From: an uncultured Bacteroidales bacterium
Lineage (GTDB): Bacteria > Bacteroidota > Bacteroidia > Bacteroidales > UBA932
Direction: 5' to 3'
DNA: 32,195 nucleotides
NCBI GenBank assembly: GCA_944326385.1
Contig: CALVDT010000052.1
Coordinates: 1 to 32,195 of the forward strand
The first letter of the stretch is position 1, and every line of letters starts with the position of its first letter. Below are positions 22,937 to 30,279 of the stretch, piece by piece. The position numbers and the translations under genes were made by a program. The notes beneath the pieces were generated by a model, which was given only the letters and a program-made list of their open reading frames with translations, did no database searches and had not been told where the DNA came from.

Positions 22937-22944
22937 TATCTTTG
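22937..22944 (+). promoter_or_regulatory. -7 promoter box for the Hdr-cysteate synthase operon
   Basis: TATCTTTG is an exact Bacteroidota -7 box. The transcription start should be near 22951, which places the in-frame GTG at 22953 almost at the first base and so supports the ATG at 22968. No -33 TTTG is visible at the usual distance. Confidence 0.6.
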
Positions 22945-22967: not shown

Positions 22968-23666
22968 ATGAAATTATACGACGAACTGCTGAAAGACTAC
23001 AGGGCCAAGGAAGGGCTGAAGACCTGCATAAACTGCGGGACATGTACAGCAATCTGCCCTGCTGCAGAGTTCTATAAATACGATCCCCGGAAGGTGATGG
23101 ACATAGTCCAGAGCCGTGACGAGGAAGAGATAGAAAAGCTGCTCAAGAGTGATTTCATCTGGTACTGCGGCGAATGCATGTCATGTGTCACACGTTGTCC
23201 GAGGAAGAACGGTCCCGGTCTCGTGATCATGGCGCTCAGAAGCCTTTCGGCAAGGCTGGGGTATTTCGTCTGCTCTGAAAAAGGGAGACAGCTCTACCCT
23301 CTTACGAAACTTCTGACCGGCAATATCCTCAATTACGGCTATTGCGTCTATCCCGATACATTCAAATGGGAAGATCACAAGGAATCGGGCCCTGTCTGGA
23401 AATGGCATCTGGAGCATATCGAGGATACCATGGCCCGTCTCGGGGCGAATTTCAAGGGTGAAGGCCCGGGAATCCTGAGGAAGATACCGCAGGAATCGCT
23501 TGACGAGCTCAAAAGCATCTTCGATGTCACCGGAGGTACCGAGCGGATAGAAACGGTAAACAGATTCTCCAAGGCTAAGGCCGAAGAGATGGGTATGGAC
23601 ATGGATGAATATTTCAGGGAGACTTTCGAACATACCTCGGAAGGACACCTGAACACCGGGGACTGA
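22968..23666 (+). CDS. HdrC-like iron-sulfur protein (sHdrC1-type)
   Basis: The 232-residue protein carries two [4Fe-4S] ferredoxin motifs close together, Cys20-X2-Cys23-X2-Cys26-X3-Cys30 in CINCGTCTAICP and Cys67-X2-Cys70-X2-Cys73-X3-Cys77 in CGECMSCVTRCP. Such HdrC-like subunits pass electrons between an HdrA flavoprotein and an HdrB catalytic subunit. The C-terminal half is without cysteine clusters and probably binds partners. No membrane segment is present. The length and its position before HdrB and HdrA fit the C1 subunit of sHdr complexes more than the short methanogen HdrC. The GTG at 22953 would overlap the promoter, so I use the ATG at 22968. Confidence 0.85.
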   Translation: MKLYDELLKDYRAKEGLKTCINCGTCTAICPAAEFYKYDPRKVMDIVQSRDEEEIEKLLKSDFIWYCGECMSCVTRCPRKNGPGLVIMALRSLSARLGYFVCSEKGRQLYPLTKLLTGNILNYGYCVYPDTFKWEDHKESGPVWKWHLEHIEDTMARLGANFKGEGPGILRKIPQESLDELKSIFDVTGGTERIETVNRFSKAKAEEMGMDMDEYFRETFEHTSEGHLNTGD

Positions 23667-23697
23667 CACAGTCCGGTCAATCAAGGAGTGAAATACA

Positions 23698-24768
23698 ATG
23701 ATATACCAAGGAAAAAAGAAAATATGGGCCGATTATCAGAAAGAAATTCCTGACAATCACTGGTTCTATGTGAGGAGCTGCATCAGGCAGAACTTCTTCC
23801 CGGGAGCGGAGAAGATGTTCCTCGAGATATGCAAGGGCCTGTTGAAGAAGGATTTCTATGAGACGGAGCACCATACTACCTGCGGAGGCATAGCCTACCA
23901 CTGCGACACGATTCCCCAGGAGACTGTGATGACCATAGTGGCGCGTCAGTTCGCCCTGATGACTGAAGCTGGGTACGAGAATTATGTAGCTTCATGCATC
24001 ACATCATTCGGGAACTATATCGAGATTCTGGAGACATGGAAGGAATTCCCGGAACTGGAGACCAGAATCAGGGAAATGCTCTGGAAAGCCTGCAGGCGTG
24101 AATTCAACAAACCGAAATATGTGGCCCATGCGAGCGATCTCATATACAAATACCGTAACGAGATAGCGGCCAGGGCAAAATACCGTCTCGTGAACAGGCA
24201 TACAGGAGAGCCGCTCCGTGTAGTCGAGCATATCGGATGCCATTACGCCAAGATGTTCCCTGCCAGGGGCATAGGCGGAGCCGAATATCCTTACGTATTG
24301 TGCGGAATGATAGAATCCTGGGGAGGGAATGTCATAGATTATCCTGAACGGCGTCATTGCTGCGGATACGGTTTCCGTCAGTATCATGTGAAGGCGAACA
24401 GGGGCTATTCCTTGTCCAATACCTATAAGAAGTTCGAGTCCATGGAGCCGTATCATCCTGATTTCATTCTCACGAACTGTCCAGGTTGCCCGTATTTCAT
24501 GGACAGATGGCAGTATGTCATCGCAGAGACCGAGGGCAAGACTTACGGGGAGAACGGATTCGGAATCCCGGTGCTCACTTATGAGGAGCTGGCTTCCCTT
24601 GTGCTCGGATATGCCCCATGGGACATAGGACTGCAGTTGCATCAGGTTGCGGTAGAGCCGCTGCTCGACAAGATCGGCATCGAATATGATCCTGCGAAGA
24701 AATATAAGGGCCTTGACGAGAAGGAACTGATGAAACCGGAACTGCCCGGAGTCCTGAGGTGCTGCTGA
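23698..24768 (+). CDS. HdrB-like CCG-domain protein with a degenerate first CCG site
   Basis: HdrB proteins hold non-cubane [4Fe-4S] clusters in CCG domains that handle disulfides or sulfur. Of the 356 residues, the second CCG domain is intact: C in EHIGCHYAK, CC in RRHCCGYGF and CPGC in TNCPGCPYF. The first is altered: Cys28, then TCGG (Cys62 with the preceding Cys replaced by Thr61) and Cys100 followed by ITS instead of a CX2C. So only one full cluster site is likely. A near-consensus Shine-Dalgarno, AAGGAG, stands nine bases before the ATG, rare in this phylum. It follows the HdrC gene by 31 bases. Its substrate is unknown. Confidence 0.85.
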   Translation: MIYQGKKKIWADYQKEIPDNHWFYVRSCIRQNFFPGAEKMFLEICKGLLKKDFYETEHHTTCGGIAYHCDTIPQETVMTIVARQFALMTEAGYENYVASCITSFGNYIEILETWKEFPELETRIREMLWKACRREFNKPKYVAHASDLIYKYRNEIAARAKYRLVNRHTGEPLRVVEHIGCHYAKMFPARGIGGAEYPYVLCGMIESWGGNVIDYPERRHCCGYGFRQYHVKANRGYSLSNTYKKFESMEPYHPDFILTNCPGCPYFMDRWQYVIAETEGKTYGENGFGIPVLTYEELASLVLGYAPWDIGLQLHQVAVEPLLDKIGIEYDPAKKYKGLDEKELMKPELPGVLRCC

Positions 24769-24811
24769 AGCATCTGTAACTAAAAGTACTGAACCCTACC
24801 CTGAATCTGAA

Positions 24812-25834
24812 ATGAAAGAGAACATAGTCATCATCGGCGGCGGAATAGCCGGACTTGAAGCTGCGGCCCAGCTTCTGGATCTCGGGTACAAGCCGATAAT
24901 AATCGAGAAAAACGACCATCTCGGAGGCCATGTCGCCGACTGGAACAAGCTTTTCCCGGACATGACCCCTGCAAATGATGTAGTCAGCTCCCTTGTGGCA
25001 AGGGCCGCGGATGCAAATATATTCCTGAACACCGAGATCTCGTTTGTAAACAGGCTGAATGACAGTTATAACATCATGCTGTCAAACGGTATTTCCATAA
25101 TCACCCGGATAATACTCCTTGCGACCGGTTTCTCTCTGTTCGATGCATCAAGGAAAGAGGAATACGGATACGGGGTCTATGATCAGGTGATTACAAACAA
25201 GGATCTTGAACACTGGTTCAATACCGGAGACGACCCGCGCATCGGCGACTGTGCAATGAACGCTGTCGGCTTCGTGCACTGTGTCGGTTCACGCGATGAA
25301 AAGGCCAGGAACAGCCAGTGCTCGAAGGTCTGCTGCATCACTGCCGTGAAACAGGCTATCGAACTGAAGCAGATGTTCCCTGAATCAATGGTCTACTGCT
25401 TCTATATGGATCTGAGGATGTTCGGAAAGAAATTCGAGGATTTCTATATATCGGCCCAGAGGGATTACGGCATCCGCTTCATACGCGGACGGGTCTCGGA
25501 AGTGAGCGAGAATATTGACGGAAGGGTGATTGTCAAGGCTGAGGATACCTTATCCGGCAAACCGGTGAAGGTCACTCTTGATCTTCTCGTACTCATGGCC
25601 GGTATGGTATGCAGTCCGGACAGTACCAAGGTTGCCAACATGACCAGTCTTCCTCTCGACTCTGACGGTTTTCTCAAATCAAGGGACAATATCGCCGATA
25701 TCATAGATTCTCCGAGAGAGGGGATCTTCTATGCAGGGGCATGTACGGGGCCGAAGACTGTCCCGGAGACTCTTGCAGAAGCCAGAGCGGCCTCACTGAA
25801 GATACATCTTTATATTAAAGGGCTGGAGAAGTGA
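24812..25834 (+). CDS. HdrA-like FAD flavoprotein without ferredoxin domains (sHdrA/QmoA-type)
   Basis: The 340-residue protein has the dinucleotide-binding motif GGGIAG at residues 9-14 and an FAD-binding fold through to the end (ATGFSLFD near 104, DGFLKSRDNI and then FYAGACTG). Cys157, Cys170, Cys174 and Cys175 in HCVGSRDE and QCSKVCC are the HdrA-type cysteines that hold a [4Fe-4S] cluster. It lacks both the N-terminal and C-terminal ferredoxin domains of methanogen HdrA, so it cannot bifurcate in that way. Size and layout match sHdrA or QmoA. Its stop overlaps the next start by one base. The 10-mer TAAAAGTACT upstream (24781-24790) also precedes the cysteate synthase gene. Confidence 0.86.
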   Translation: MKENIVIIGGGIAGLEAAAQLLDLGYKPIIIEKNDHLGGHVADWNKLFPDMTPANDVVSSLVARAADANIFLNTEISFVNRLNDSYNIMLSNGISIITRIILLATGFSLFDASRKEEYGYGVYDQVITNKDLEHWFNTGDDPRIGDCAMNAVGFVHCVGSRDEKARNSQCSKVCCITAVKQAIELKQMFPESMVYCFYMDLRMFGKKFEDFYISAQRDYGIRFIRGRVSEVSENIDGRVIVKAEDTLSGKPVKVTLDLLVLMAGMVCSPDSTKVANMTSLPLDSDGFLKSRDNIADIIDSPREGIFYAGACTGPKTVPETLAEARAASLKIHLYIKGLEK

Positions 25835-26166
25835 TGGATTTCGGATTCAGAATATCGCCGAGTTCAGCTGTCAATCTGGACAATGTCGATCTCGAGAAGT
25901 TCGAGGAACTGCACAGGATCGAGCCTGATGTATATAAATGCATGGCATGCGGCTCCTGCAGTGCGACCTGCCCTGCCGCAAGATTCTCGGGAATGAGTCT
26001 CAGGAAAGTGATTCTCGCATTGCAGCGGGGAAAGGAAAAGGAAGCGCTGGCCATGATGAAAAACTGCATGCTCTGCGGAAAATGCACCATGGTGTGTCCG
26101 AGAGGCATCAATACAAGGCATCTTATCCTGTCCATCTGCAGAATCTACAAGGAGGAGACCAAATGA
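25834..26166 (+). CDS. Short HdrC-like double-cluster ferredoxin subunit
   Basis: The 110-residue protein has two [4Fe-4S] sites: Cys36, 39, 42 and 46 in CMACGSCSATCP and Cys78, 81, 84 and 88 in CMLCGKCTMVCP. It is the classical short HdrC and would connect the HdrA flavoprotein to the membrane subunit that follows. The GTG at 25831 is also possible, but the ATG at 25834 overlaps the hdrA stop in the common TGATG way. Four bases overlap the next gene, so all three are probably translationally coupled. Confidence 0.88.
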   Translation: MDFGFRISPSSAVNLDNVDLEKFEELHRIEPDVYKCMACGSCSATCPAARFSGMSLRKVILALQRGKEKEALAMMKNCMLCGKCTMVCPRGINTRHLILSICRIYKEETK

Positions 26167-28040
26167 GAGAGAGATTTCTGACAGGCTACAACGATTTCGT
26201 GCTTCCGTTTGTCTGCGGGATGCTTTTCGTCATCATCTACTGTCTTGCAGGCATGATAAGGATCATCATGCAGCTGCCGGTCCAGGACAGGAAGAAGTTT
26301 TTCCTTTCCCTCATAACACCGAAGACCCTGATCAAGGACATCAAGGATATTTTCCTCAAATGCCTTATCCATGTCGACCTTTGGAAAAGGAACAAGCTGC
26401 TCGGCTACATGCATTCCAGCATAGCGTTCGGGTGGTTCATGCTGATAGTGGTGGGGCATATAGAAGTCATCCTCTACACTTCGAACCTCGGAGCAAAGGC
26501 CCTCTACTATCCGATCTTCTTCAGATATTTCGTTGCCGAGACGGAAAGCACCATGAGAGGGTCGCTGATATTCTTCCTCATGGACTTCTTCCTGCTCGTG
26601 GTACTCAGCGGAATCGTCCTCGCGATAATAAAAAGAGTCAGATCGCGGCTTTTCGGCATGAGGCGTACCACCAACCCGAGTTTCCTTGACCTGGTCGGAC
26701 TTTATTCTCTCTGGTCAATCTTTCCGCTCAGGCTTCTGGCGGAATCATTTACCGCAGACATCAGCGGAGGCTCCTTCCTGACAAAGTCCCTGAATTATGT
26801 CTTCACTGAATTTCTCAGCAACCATGCCAACATGCTGCCTGCATGGTGGGCATATTCATGCGCCCTGGGGATATTCTTCTTCGTGCTGCCTTTCACAAGG
26901 TACATGCACATCCCGACAGAGATTCTCCTTATACCGCTGAGGAATGCCGGAATCAGGATTGTCAATGCCAGAAAAGGACTTGCCAAAGCCCAGGTATATG
27001 CCTGTCCGAGCTGTGGCGTATGTATCGATGCATGTCCGATGGGAGTCCAGAAAGGCAACATAAAGGACACCACCGTGTATCTCAACCGGCAGATCAAAAG
27101 GAACAACGAGACAAGGATAGAAGAAATAAGCGACAAATGTCTCCTTTGCGGCAAATGTACTGCTGTCTGCCCTGTCGGAGTCGAAGGGGACAAACTGAGG
27201 ATAGCCCAAAGGTCCATAAGGAAATACAGTTACAGTCCAGACTACTCGAATATTGATGTCGCGGCTGAAATAAATGCATGTAACAACTTTGTTAGTGGTG
27301 ATAACAACAATGTTTCATCCATTGAAAACAAGAAGGTTCTCTACTTCGCAGGTTGTATGACAGCCTTGACGCCTGCCATAAGGAAGACCACTGTGTCTAT
27401 TCTGTCCAAGGCAGGTATCAGCTATAGCATGATGGATAAGGATGGCGGCATATGCTGCGGGAGACCGATATTCATGGCAGGAAGATTCGACCAGGCAAAG
27501 CAGCTTGTGGAGAAGAATACCGAAATCATAATGAATTCCGGTGCAGACATACTTCTTCTTACCTGCCCTATCTGCTACAAGATTTTCAGGGAGAAGTACA
27601 CGCTTCCGGGGATCGAGATCATCCACCATACTGAATTCATCGAAAGACTCATATCTTCCGGAAGAATCAAGATCAGCAAAGACACGACCAGATATGTTTT
27701 CCATGACCCTTGCGAACTCGGACGTGGATGCGGAGTCTACGAGCAGCCGAGAAAAGTCCTTGCTTCTGCCGGAAACCTTGTAGAAGCAGCAAAGAACCGT
27801 CAGGAAAGCATCTGCTGCGGCGGCAGTCTCGGAAGTCTTACTCTCGGGTTCGACAAAAGGAGGGCCATGACCGAAAACGCATTGGCAAACCTTGTCTCCG
27901 ATGACCCGGACAGGATAGTGACTGCATGTCCTTTGTGCCTTGATACGTTTGCCAGATATTCTGACCGTCCTGTGGAAGACATTTCCCAGGTTATCGACAG
28001 GGTGTCGGTTCCGGCGGATAAGAAACGAAACGATAATTAA
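26163..28040 (+). CDS. Membrane cytochrome-like domain fused to ferredoxin and HdrD-like CCG modules
   Basis: The 625-residue protein is a fusion. Residues 12-34, 82-104, 134-156 and 226-246 are membrane helices (a further one near 172-192 is less clear) of the NarI/DsrM/HmeC cytochrome b type. Histidines 84, 99, 221 and 249 are candidate heme ligands. Two [4Fe-4S] motifs follow at Cys281-291 and Cys326-336. The C-terminal half has two intact CCG domains: Cys398, CC 431-432 and CPIC 468-471, then Cys517, CC 551-552 and CPLC 589-592. It should exchange electrons with menaquinone. The ATG at 26163 follows AAGGAGG by seven bases and overlaps the upstream stop; the frame is open to 25938 but that lies inside the previous gene. 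Confidence 0.85.
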   Translation: MRERFLTGYNDFVLPFVCGMLFVIIYCLAGMIRIIMQLPVQDRKKFFLSLITPKTLIKDIKDIFLKCLIHVDLWKRNKLLGYMHSSIAFGWFMLIVVGHIEVILYTSNLGAKALYYPIFFRYFVAETESTMRGSLIFFLMDFFLLVVLSGIVLAIIKRVRSRLFGMRRTTNPSFLDLVGLYSLWSIFPLRLLAESFTADISGGSFLTKSLNYVFTEFLSNHANMLPAWWAYSCALGIFFFVLPFTRYMHIPTEILLIPLRNAGIRIVNARKGLAKAQVYACPSCGVCIDACPMGVQKGNIKDTTVYLNRQIKRNNETRIEEISDKCLLCGKCTAVCPVGVEGDKLRIAQRSIRKYSYSPDYSNIDVAAEINACNNFVSGDNNNVSSIENKKVLYFAGCMTALTPAIRKTTVSILSKAGISYSMMDKDGGICCGRPIFMAGRFDQAKQLVEKNTEIIMNSGADILLLTCPICYKIFREKYTLPGIEIIHHTEFIERLISSGRIKISKDTTRYVFHDPCELGRGCGVYEQPRKVLASAGNLVEAAKNRQESICCGGSLGSLTLGFDKRRAMTENALANLVSDDPDRIVTACPLCLDTFARYSDRPVEDISQVIDRVSVPADKKRNDN

Positions 28041-28053
28041 AAGTACTATAATC

Positions 28054-29340
28054 ATGACCTTTAAACCTGTAGACTACACTTTGATGAACTGTGCAGACGG
28101 AAGGATGTTCGAAGATTCCGGCTGGACGCTGGCAGACCCGCAGAGCAAGACCCCTTCACTTGTAAGGGCTGTATATAAGGAAAGGAAATTCACTCTTCGC
28201 GATGATCTGGACGGCTTCTACCGTTTTGCGAACTGGCTTCCGGTCAAAAGGACCCTGAACCATTCTTCCGCACCGGTCACATATAAGAGCAAGGCTCTTG
28301 CCGAATACCTTTCGCTGGACAACCTGTATATTACCTTTTCCGGTTATTATCCGGAAATAGGAGCATCGATGCAGACCTGTTCATTCAAGGAGACCGAAGC
28401 ATATTCAGTATGTGCAAGGCTGCCGGAAAACGAGGAAAGGATACTTGTCGTGGCATCTGCCGGCAATACTGCGAGAGCTTTTGCAAAAGTCTGCTCCGAT
28501 AACGGAATCCGCCTCCTTCTCAGTATCCCGGAGGACAATATCCATGCTCTATGGTTCGAAAAGCCGCTGGACAGCTGCGTGAGGATCATGGCTGCTCCCA
28601 AAGGTGCGGATTATTTCGATGCTATCGCACTCGGAGACAAAGTATGCGAGTCTCCGCGTTTCTTTGCGGAAGGCGGTGCCAAGAACATAGCAAGAAGGGA
28701 CGGCATGGGGACTACCCTGCTGTCAGCCGTGGAAGTCATCGGCAGGATTCCTGATGCCTATTTCCAGGCCATCGGAAGCGGGACAGGTACCATTGCTGTC
28801 TGGGAGAACAATCTCCGGCTTATCGAAGACGGCAGATTCGGCAGCCATAAGATGAAGCTGTATCCATCACAGAATGATCCGTTCACCATAATGTACGATT
28901 CCTGGAAGGCCGGTTCAAGGGAACTTCTGCCCCTGACTCCGGACGAGGCAAGGAAACAGGCCTCGATAATAAAGGCAAAGGTCCTTTCCAACAGGAAACC
29001 GCCGTATTCCCTTGCCGGAGGTCTCTACGATGCCATGAAGGATGCCGGAGGAGACATCTACAAGGTGACGAACGATGAGCTGGATCAATGGAAGGAACGG
29101 TATCATGCACTTGAGGGAGTCGACATTTACTCTGCTGCTGCCGTAGCGGTTTCAAGTCTGGAGAAAGCGGTAAAGGACGGCACTGTGAAGCATGATGACA
29201 TCATAATGCTGAACATAACGGGCGGCGGTGAGGAACTTGCCAAGGCTCATAAGAAAGTGGTTTATGCCCAGCCTGACATTGTCCTGGATCCGGCTCTCCC
29301 TGCATCGGAGATAATCGGCAAGGTAGAAAAACTGTTTTAG
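28054..29340 (+). CDS. Cysteate synthase (PLP-dependent, threonine synthase fold)
   Basis: Cysteate synthase makes L-cysteate from O-phospho-L-serine and sulfite. It is known from coenzyme M synthesis in Methanosarcina and, in Bacteroidota, supplies sulfonolipids. The 428-residue length fits. The PLP lysine is Lys112 in TCSFKETEA. The phosphate cup is SAGNTARAFA near 135-144, with GSGTGTIAVWE further on. Stretches such as LYITFSGYYPEIGASMQT, EGGAKNIARRDGMGT and NRKPPYSLAGGLYDAMKDAGG are closest to archaeal cysteate synthases as I recall them, not to ThrC. The ATG at 28054 lies 13 bases after the Hdr fusion gene. The enzyme assignment is from family memory, not from a search. Confidence 0.82.
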   Translation: MTFKPVDYTLMNCADGRMFEDSGWTLADPQSKTPSLVRAVYKERKFTLRDDLDGFYRFANWLPVKRTLNHSSAPVTYKSKALAEYLSLDNLYITFSGYYPEIGASMQTCSFKETEAYSVCARLPENEERILVVASAGNTARAFAKVCSDNGIRLLLSIPEDNIHALWFEKPLDSCVRIMAAPKGADYFDAIALGDKVCESPRFFAEGGAKNIARRDGMGTTLLSAVEVIGRIPDAYFQAIGSGTGTIAVWENNLRLIEDGRFGSHKMKLYPSQNDPFTIMYDSWKAGSRELLPLTPDEARKQASIIKAKVLSNRKPPYSLAGGLYDAMKDAGGDIYKVTNDELDQWKERYHALEGVDIYSAAAVAVSSLEKAVKDGTVKHDDIIMLNITGGGEELAKAHKKVVYAQPDIVLDPALPASEIIGKVEKLF

Positions 29341-29349
29341 AATATCATC

Positions 29350-30279
29350 ATGGGATTGTTTTTGCTTCAGGCTGCCGACAGCGTTGCCGCAGCCGACACA
29401 CTGGATCTTCAGAAGACCACAGTGGAACTTGTGGAAAAACTGGCCACGACTCCGGCTGACCAGCTGCTTGCAGAATTCGGGGACAAGGCTATTGCATTCG
29501 GGCTTAAAGTCCTGGCTGCTCTTGTCATCTATGTGGTCGGAGCATGGATTATCAGGAAAATCAAGAAGATAATCCACAATATCTTCGTAAAACGGAATAC
29601 GGAGCATTCCATAGCATCTTTCGTGGAAAGCCTTGTCAGCATAGCCCTGACTGTATTTCTGGTCATCTTCACCATCAGTGCACTCGGGATAAACACCACT
29701 TCCATAGCAGCCTTGCTTGCTGCAGGAGGTATGGCCATAGGTATGGCATTGAGCGGGACTGTCCAGAATTTTGCCGGCGGAATAATGCTGCTGGTTTTCA
29801 AACCGTTCAAGGCAGGTGACTTTATCGAGGCACAGGGCTTCAGCGGAACCGTTACCGATGTGACCATAGTCAGCACGAAACTCACCACGACAGACAACAG
29901 AAGCATAATCATACCTAACGGTGCCCTGTCGAACGGTACGATCAACAATTACTCCCAGAACGTGTACCGCAGGCTGGAATGGCTGGTCGATGTAGAATAT
30001 GGCGCATCCTCGCCTAAAGTCAAGGAAGTTCTCCAGAAGATAGTGGATGACGAAAAACGCATAGTATATTCACCGGCAGCCCCTGCTGATCCTACTATTG
30101 CCCTCAATGCACTGAGAGACAGCAGTGTCCAGTTTGTAGTGCGGGCATGGGTGAAGAAGGAGGATTACTGGGATGTGCTGTATGCCGTGAATGAGGCGAT
30201 TTATCTAAGGATTCCGGAGAATGGGATAGAGTTCCCGTTCCCGCAGCTTGATGTTCATATAAACAATGGAGACCAGTAG
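29350..30279 (+). CDS. mscS: MscS family mechanosensitive channel
   Basis: The 309-residue protein is a small-conductance mechanosensitive channel of the inner membrane that releases solutes under hypo-osmotic shock. Membrane helices are at about residues 48-68, 90-112 and 116-142. The third has the Gly/Ala-rich pore pattern, GMAIGMALSGTVQNFAGGIM. The cytosolic beta domain follows with FKPFKAGDFIEAQGFSGTV and IIIPNGALSNGTINNYS. An alpha-beta domain and FPFPQLDVHI end the protein as in E. coli MscS. The N-terminal 40 residues are polar and helical. It starts nine bases after cysteate synthase. Its last nine codons and stop lie inside the inverted repeat at 30252-30301. Confidence 0.92.
   Translation: MGLFLLQAADSVAAADTLDLQKTTVELVEKLATTPADQLLAEFGDKAIAFGLKVLAALVIYVVGAWIIRKIKKIIHNIFVKRNTEHSIASFVESLVSIALTVFLVIFTISALGINTTSIAALLAAGGMAIGMALSGTVQNFAGGIMLLVFKPFKAGDFIEAQGFSGTVTDVTIVSTKLTTTDNRSIIIPNGALSNGTINNYSQNVYRRLEWLVDVEYGASSPKVKEVLQKIVDDEKRIVYSPAAPADPTIALNALRDSSVQFVVRAWVKKEDYWDVLYAVNEAIYLRIPENGIEFPFPQLDVHINNGDQ

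Follow-up and report, generated by a model that had tools for sequence, protein, structure and literature searches.

The closest described relatives of the locus studied here are the sHdr systems, in which heterodisulfide reductase (Hdr)-like proteins oxidize sulfur to sulfite. They are described as type I, with the gene order C1B1AHC2B2, and type II, with the order C1B1AHB3 together with EtfAB (PMC11582611), and their genes are described as inevitably associated with LbpA, a lipoate-binding protein (PMC6067878). A second related protein is EtfD, the mycobacterial membrane ETF:menaquinone oxidoreductase, which is reported to pass electrons via iron-sulfur clusters and heme b to menaquinone; a threonine and a histidine distinguish its two Hdr-like clusters from those of Hdr (PMC13083937). 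The window analyzed here, 32,195 nucleotides of an uncultured Bacteroidales bacterium (contig CALVDT010000052.1, here C52, of the 2.3 Mb, 87% complete assembly GCA_944326385.1), contains five Hdr-like genes in the order C1-B-A-C2-D, followed by genes for a cysteate synthase and an MscS channel, all on the + strand between positions 22968 and 30279. The C1-B-A-C2-D cluster is probably an oxidative source of sulfite for sulfonolipids, replacing or adding to the route from sulfate through CysDN and CysH.

Conservation of the Hdr-like operon

The gene run is real and exceeds a chance arrangement. An earlier note made from the sequence of the window had described Hdr-like genes with a cysteate synthase 13 bases further on, and this arrangement is confirmed by the coordinates, the profile matches and the curated cut-off of TIGR03844. 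C1 and B are separated by 31 bases and B and A by 43, A/C2 and C2/D overlap by 4 bases each, and the gaps between D and the cysteate synthase and between the latter and MscS are 13 and 9 bases. The cluster was followed through an order sample of 295 Bacteroidales genomes and through 80 named loci. Relatives of B that are 57–95% identical were found in 90 of the 295 genomes at E <1e-100; together with two fragments (G063 and G012), they constitute the 92 cluster genomes. All five genes were recovered by tblastn at 79 of the 91 loci fetched around B in the order sample and at 73 of the 80 named loci. Of the 12 incomplete loci, several are located at the ends of contigs; only A and B were seen in three genomes of family f2, and only C1 and B at three loci. 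The C1-B pairs without adjoining A, C2 and D (L053:8105-9858, which is a second copy in G224, L194 and L214) may belong to a related complex whose partners differ. Of 127 genomes from other parts of the phylum, 31 matched at E up to 1e-10 with a best identity of 31%, and this cluster type was not seen. The window host groups with Candidatus Cryptobacteroides (Bacteroidales): the nearest named locus, L074, is from an uncultured Bacteroidales metagenome-assembled genome (83–96% identity gene by gene), and the locus of Candidatus Cryptobacteroides intestinipullorum (L078) is 80–94% identical to the window genes.

Association with sulfonolipid genes

SulA (cysteate acyl-ACP transferase), which is described as accepting cysteate and not serine or phosphoserine and as marked by Lys281 (PMC9304779), was scored at E <1e-100, CysH by TIGR02055 at E <1e-30, and TIGR03844 above its own cut-off. 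SulA was identified in L046, where the protein matches 7u7h, apparently the SulA of A. finegoldii, at 2.7e-190 and 28eh, 'Cysteate-C-fatty acyltransferase' (CFAT), at 2.7e-178, compared with 2.3e-69 for serine palmitoyltransferase; the lysine that marks SulA/CFAT lies within a conserved AKSLPMP segment. The 295 genomes contain SulA in 209 cases, CysH in 182 (158 above the family cut-off) and TIGR03844 in 80. The cluster and SulA occur together in 86 genomes, with the cluster alone in 6, SulA alone in 123 and neither in 80 (p 9e-10). After removal of 49 less complete genomes by a hand list, the corresponding counts are 81, 2, 101 and 62, and by family they are 49, 0, 46 and 25. The two are also absent jointly. 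G126, a member of the window's family, has neither the cluster nor SulA nor cysteate synthase, and members of f41 and f81 that do not have the cluster do not have SulA. The genome-wide co-occurrence that the earlier note had envisaged is strong with SulA (86 of 92 genomes, 49 of 49 families) but weak with TIGR03844.

Physical linkage was observed in several arrangements. The full run SulA-SDR-C1-B-A-C2-D-cysteate synthase is present in nine of the 80 named loci, of which 67 hold enough upstream sequence, and in seven of these nine it is preceded by a VOC-family gene. Cysteate synthase directly follows D in 41 of the 70 named loci that could be judged. A VOC/glyoxalase-family protein of ~356 amino acids is found repeatedly in sulfonolipid clusters, in those of the Hdr kind as well as those of the CysH kind (L101:6133-7203, L047:13169-14239 and L241:7237-8331). 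In the order sample, eight cluster genomes show linkage, to SulA in f27, f41, f81 and f108 and to TIGR03844 in f1; f27 is linked to SulA alone, and the internal gene order differs in f81. In four of the eight (f41, f81 twice and f108), a threonine-synthase-like enzyme of ~409 amino acids replaces TIGR03844. A quick tree of A and B (111 rows) places the two kinds of linkage in different clades; the linkage therefore originated, or was retained, on at least two occasions.

The threonine-synthase-like pyridoxal phosphate (PLP) enzyme adjoins SulA at L046:11412-12641 (- strand) and also in L045, L047, L225, L241, L242 and L244-L247. It reaches only 108 bits with TIGR03844, compared with 149 bits for the threonine synthase model PRK08197, and may represent another kind of cysteate synthase that has no name yet. 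The name CapA, which we take to denote a cystathionine-synthase-like protein, is not used for it. Two kinds of cysteate enzyme are described in Bacteroidota in a review (PMC10191378).

Relation to the CysH route

Within the 209 SulA genomes, the cluster and CysH are negatively associated: 56 genomes have both, 30 the cluster only, 106 CysH only and 17 neither (odds ratio 0.30, p 0.0006). With one genome per family, the median odds ratio is 0.33 and the median p 0.053; by SulA family, the counts are 40, 9, 45 and 1. CysH is lacking in seven of the eight linked cluster genomes compared with 25 of the 84 unlinked ones (p 0.002), and the three cluster-bearing members of the window's family are all without it. 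In other sulfonolipid clusters, a CysDN-CysH module occupies a similar position. Near SulA, G062 carries genes for VOC, CysH, CysD, CysN, an anion transporter (below the model cut-off), CysQ and the threonine-synthase-like enzyme, and in G145 CysH separates that enzyme from SulA. The module (L241, G062) resembles the Hdr-like cluster in that it adjoins SulA and its partner enzyme and would supply sulfite, but its starting compound is sulfate and the two share no sequence relationship.

Adenosine 5'-phosphosulfate (APS) reductase, that is CysH (for example L241:8344-9087), is almost never accompanied by siroheme sulfite reductase in Bacteroidales SulA genomes, as if its sulfite had another destination. 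PF01077, the siroheme sulfite reductase, was found in only two of the 80 SulA genomes searched: in 0 of 30 with the cluster and no CysH, in 1 of 17 with neither, and in 1 of 33 with CysH and no cluster (33 of the 106 were searched). Because sulfite from CysH seldom meets a siroheme reductase, cysteate is a likely fate of that sulfite, and it is mainly for this reason that the cluster is read as a sulfite source. The same scarcity could be taken in the opposite sense. The complex might reduce sulfite or another oxidized sulfur compound in order to assimilate or detoxify it, and share the operon to control the sulfite level: Hdr-type chemistry can proceed both ways, and a substitute would be useful in the 78 of 80 SulA genomes that have no siroheme sulfite reductase. 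This alternative is quite unlikely, however, given that the 30 cluster and SulA genomes without CysH have no evident internal sulfite, that 106 genomes with CysH and SulA manage without the cluster, and that a sulfite sink would compete with the cysteate synthase of its own operon.

Comparison with known Hdr types

The soluble subunits retain their cofactor motifs. C1 and C2 each contain two sets of four cysteines, and all 8 motif cysteines are kept in 17 C1 sequences and 14 C2 sequences. B has one complete CCG set (C181, C221-222, C261 and C264) and one incomplete set (C28, C62 and C100), which are conserved in 20 sequences. Residues 4-330 of A align in a single stretch with PDB 6tjr (349 amino acids; E 1.1e-58), which we take to be sHdrA of Hyphomicrobium denitrificans. 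The methanogen HdrA chains, in contrast, match A piecewise and within far longer proteins. The cysteines C157, C170, C174 and C175 of A are kept in 19 sequences.

Among the matches listed, none of the five Hdr-like proteins reached a curated cut-off for canonical Hdr, QmoC or DsrK. Canonical HdrABC of methanogens has the A, B and C families in common with the window, but it was rejected, with scores of 249 bits against 1100 for A, 126 against 450 for B and 80 against 350 for C1; A comprises only 340 amino acids and is without the ferredoxin domains linked to bifurcation. A Qmo complex was likewise rejected, since C1 scores 49 bits against a cut-off of 300 with the QmoC model, the one compared.

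The cluster shares with the type I and type II sHdr-LbpA systems the C1-B-A core order, both in the window and in the five-gene loci (by gene order, with B assigned as HdrB-like), the short sHdrA-type HdrA without ferredoxin domains that aligns over its full length, and the expected product, sulfite. It differs in the rest. There is no Hyp gene between A and C2, which overlap in the window; in place of C2-B2, or of a fused B3 with EtfAB, C2 is followed by a membrane-Fer4-CCG fusion with no Etf gene in the operon, so that the last subunit is an EtfD-like membrane protein instead of a soluble B2/B3; no LbpA was found in the operon; and the cluster sits with lipid biosynthesis genes. Membership of sHdr was rejected on the LbpA, Hyp and B2/B3 features.

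A true sHdr system might still use an unlinked lipoate-binding protein, and an H-protein-type gene is present somewhere in 41 of 44 cluster genomes, in addition to the C1-B-A order and the full alignment of A with 6tjr. The strong H-protein matches lie on other contigs or >400 kb away, and G018 (99% complete), G047 and G255 carry the cluster with no H-protein match at all. With Hyp missing and B2 replaced by the membrane fusion, this explanation is very improbable. TusA was present in 6 of the 30 genomes checked. Neither LbpA nor TusA is required as a sulfur carrier. The resemblance to sHdr pointed out in the earlier note does not extend to membership; the cluster shares the sHdr core and may work like sHdr without being sHdr.

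An Hdr-like cluster on a Picosynechococcus sp. PCC 7003 plasmid (L154) has the same C1-B-A-C2 order with 41% identity in B and 43% in A. It differs in that genes for a soluble HdrB-type protein and a flavoprotein come after C2 (the C1-B-A-C2-HdrB-flavoprotein cluster spans L154:8242-13982) and that no cysteate gene is annotated in the 19 kb seen. In the plasmid search, the records matching B were one from Picosynechococcus and three from Acidithiobacillus, and A matched Picosynechococcus and Ilyobacter; the Acidithiobacillus regions seen contain no C1-B-A cluster.

The membrane subunit D

D contains four hydrophobic segments and conserves the histidines His70, His84 and His249; its cysteines comprise eight of the cubane type and two full CCG sets. 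The AlphaFold model is of mediocre quality, with a predicted local distance difference test (pLDDT) score of 69.9 and a predicted TM-score (pTM) of 0.51. With this model, the top solved structure in Foldseek is 9ojn, the Mycobacterium smegmatis EtfD (E 5.3e-18, TM-score 0.42, root-mean-square deviation 15.2), and the sequence match between D and 9ojn is limited to the CCG half. Both proteins appear to combine a membrane part, two [4Fe-4S] motifs and two CCG domains in one chain with heme-type histidines. Unlike EtfD, D retains all CCG cysteines and is accompanied by HdrA, B and C genes, and no EtfA or EtfB gene was found within 22968-30279. The label 'cytochrome-like' is applied to D because of its hydrophobic segments, the three conserved histidines and the fold match to EtfD. 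The suggestion of the earlier note that electrons reach menaquinone through such a domain gains from the likeness to EtfD, but no Pfam cytochrome domain was found in D at E up to 0.001.

Proposed mechanism

C1-B-A-C2-D would form an Hdr-like complex that is anchored in the membrane and does not bifurcate electrons. In B, the non-cubane cluster would oxidize bound sulfide-level sulfur to sulfite, and the electrons may pass from C1 to the flavin adenine dinucleotide (FAD) of A, then to C2, D, heme b and menaquinone. Cysteate synthase joins sulfite to phosphoserine in archaea, and the adjacent enzyme would do the same here. SulA and a ketoreductase could then convert cysteate to capnine for sulfonolipids, with the complex replacing or supplementing the sulfate-CysDN-CysH route. 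The potentials of the sulfite/sulfide couple (~-116 mV) and of menaquinone (~-74 mV) would permit the oxidation of sulfide by menaquinone if cysteate synthase holds sulfite low.

The assignment of this role relies on gene content, gene order, conservation, co-occurrence with SulA and partial exchange with CysH. Several observations weigh against it. Linkage to SulA or to a cysteate-type PLP enzyme was seen in only 8 of the 92 cluster genomes, from five families with the window included, a lower bound because 28 of the 91 fetched loci hold <3 kb on one side; and 29 of the 70 judged named loci have the cluster without cysteate synthase next to D. The cluster and TIGR03844 are weakly associated (both 33, cluster only 59, TIGR03844 only 47, neither 156; odds ratio 1.9, p 0.03), with p 0.24 in the more complete genomes. 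CysH is also present in 60 of the 92 cluster genomes, and 17 SulA genomes have neither the cluster nor CysH, 7 of which give a weak match of CysD-like strength. A sulfur donor was not found, there being no linked LbpA and TusA in 6 of 30 genomes. Nothing in the gene data fixes the direction of the reaction, and we infer the oxidative one. Permutation within families gave a mean of 83.1 joint genomes against the 86 observed, a value reached in 299 of 5000 draws; the association within families is weak, and shared ancestry therefore matters.

The last point and the 84 of 92 cluster genomes that are unlinked would also suit a system that serves general redox functions or sulfide detoxification in anaerobic Bacteroidales and whose tie to sulfonolipids reflects mostly shared ancestry and lifestyle. 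Sulfide detoxification has been suggested for the complete heterodisulfide reductase gene set in Black Sea isolates, including Labilibaculum euxinus (PMC11129491), and Labilibaculum is reported to produce capnine lipids (PMC12927429). Such a general role is nevertheless unlikely: it does not fit the full SulA-SDR-cysteate synthase operons, the joining in two clades with two different partner enzymes, the absence of any cluster family without SulA or the complementary pattern with CysH. For the supply of sulfite to cysteate, proposed in the earlier note, the gene order in two clades, the co-occurrence with SulA and the partial exchange with CysH stand on one side and the weak co-occurrence with TIGR03844 on the other. 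That hypothesis is partly supported, being stronger for sulfite supply than from the window alone and weaker for the sHdr label.

Features of the locus

The coordinates are collected in Table 1. An MscS gene accompanies cysteate synthase in 26 named loci; in G224, which belongs to the window's family, a SulP-type transporter (L035:10876-12651) follows cysteate synthase instead of MscS. The promoter pattern TANNTTTG, presumably the Bacteroidetes -7 consensus, occurs 20 times in the window, where 12.6 occurrences would be expected, and the evidence for a promoter is hence weak.

Table 1. Features of the Hdr-like operon in the window.
Feature	Position	Strand	Evidence
Possible promoter -7 element TATCTTTG	22937..22944	+	24 bases upstream of the C1 start codon; pattern match, weak
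C1, HdrC-like, two [4Fe-4S] motifs	22968..23666	+	ATG at 22968; NF041779 HdrC E 1.5e-22, 80 bits (cut-off 350)
B, HdrB-like with CCG domain, probable sulfur-chemistry site	23698..24768	+	NF041780 HdrB E 2.6e-36
A, short HdrA-like FAD protein, 340 amino acids, without ferredoxin domains	24812..25834	+	Alignment with PDB 6tjr
C2, HdrC-like, two [4Fe-4S] motifs	25831..26166	+	NF041779 E 3.1e-10
D, EtfD-like fusion of a membrane part with two [4Fe-4S] and two CCG domains	26163..28040	+	PF02754 twice, Fer4; Foldseek
Cysteate synthase (PLP enzyme)	28054..29340	+	TIGR03844 453.9 bits, above the curated equivalog cut-off of 324.9
MscS-type channel, last gene of the run	29350..30279	+	PF00924, PF21082

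Implications

Sulfonolipids of gut Bacteroidales are bioactive, and the enzymes that use cysteate are known. In the text searched, the term 'sulfite' is absent from papers on these enzymes (PMC9304779, PMC11211663, PMC10191378 and PMC12927429). No paper joining an Hdr complex to sulfonolipids was found in the titles and abstract starts among the matches listed; the searched text of PMC11129491 contains terms for both and does not join them. The present comparison indicates two exchangeable sulfite modules for sulfonolipids, the Hdr-like cluster and the CysH route. We lean slightly towards regarding the former as a third kind of Hdr-type sulfur oxidation, membrane-anchored and independent of LbpA, whose sulfite would serve biosynthesis instead of energy metabolism. 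With menaquinone as the oxidant, it would enable strictly anaerobic Bacteroidales to make sulfonolipid head groups from sulfide, as a modular stand-in for the sulfate-APS reductase route. If this is true, Hdr-type sulfur oxidation in fermenting gut anaerobes would be an anabolic step that consumes sulfide, and Hdr-like genes in Bacteroidales genomes need not signal sulfur-based energy metabolism.

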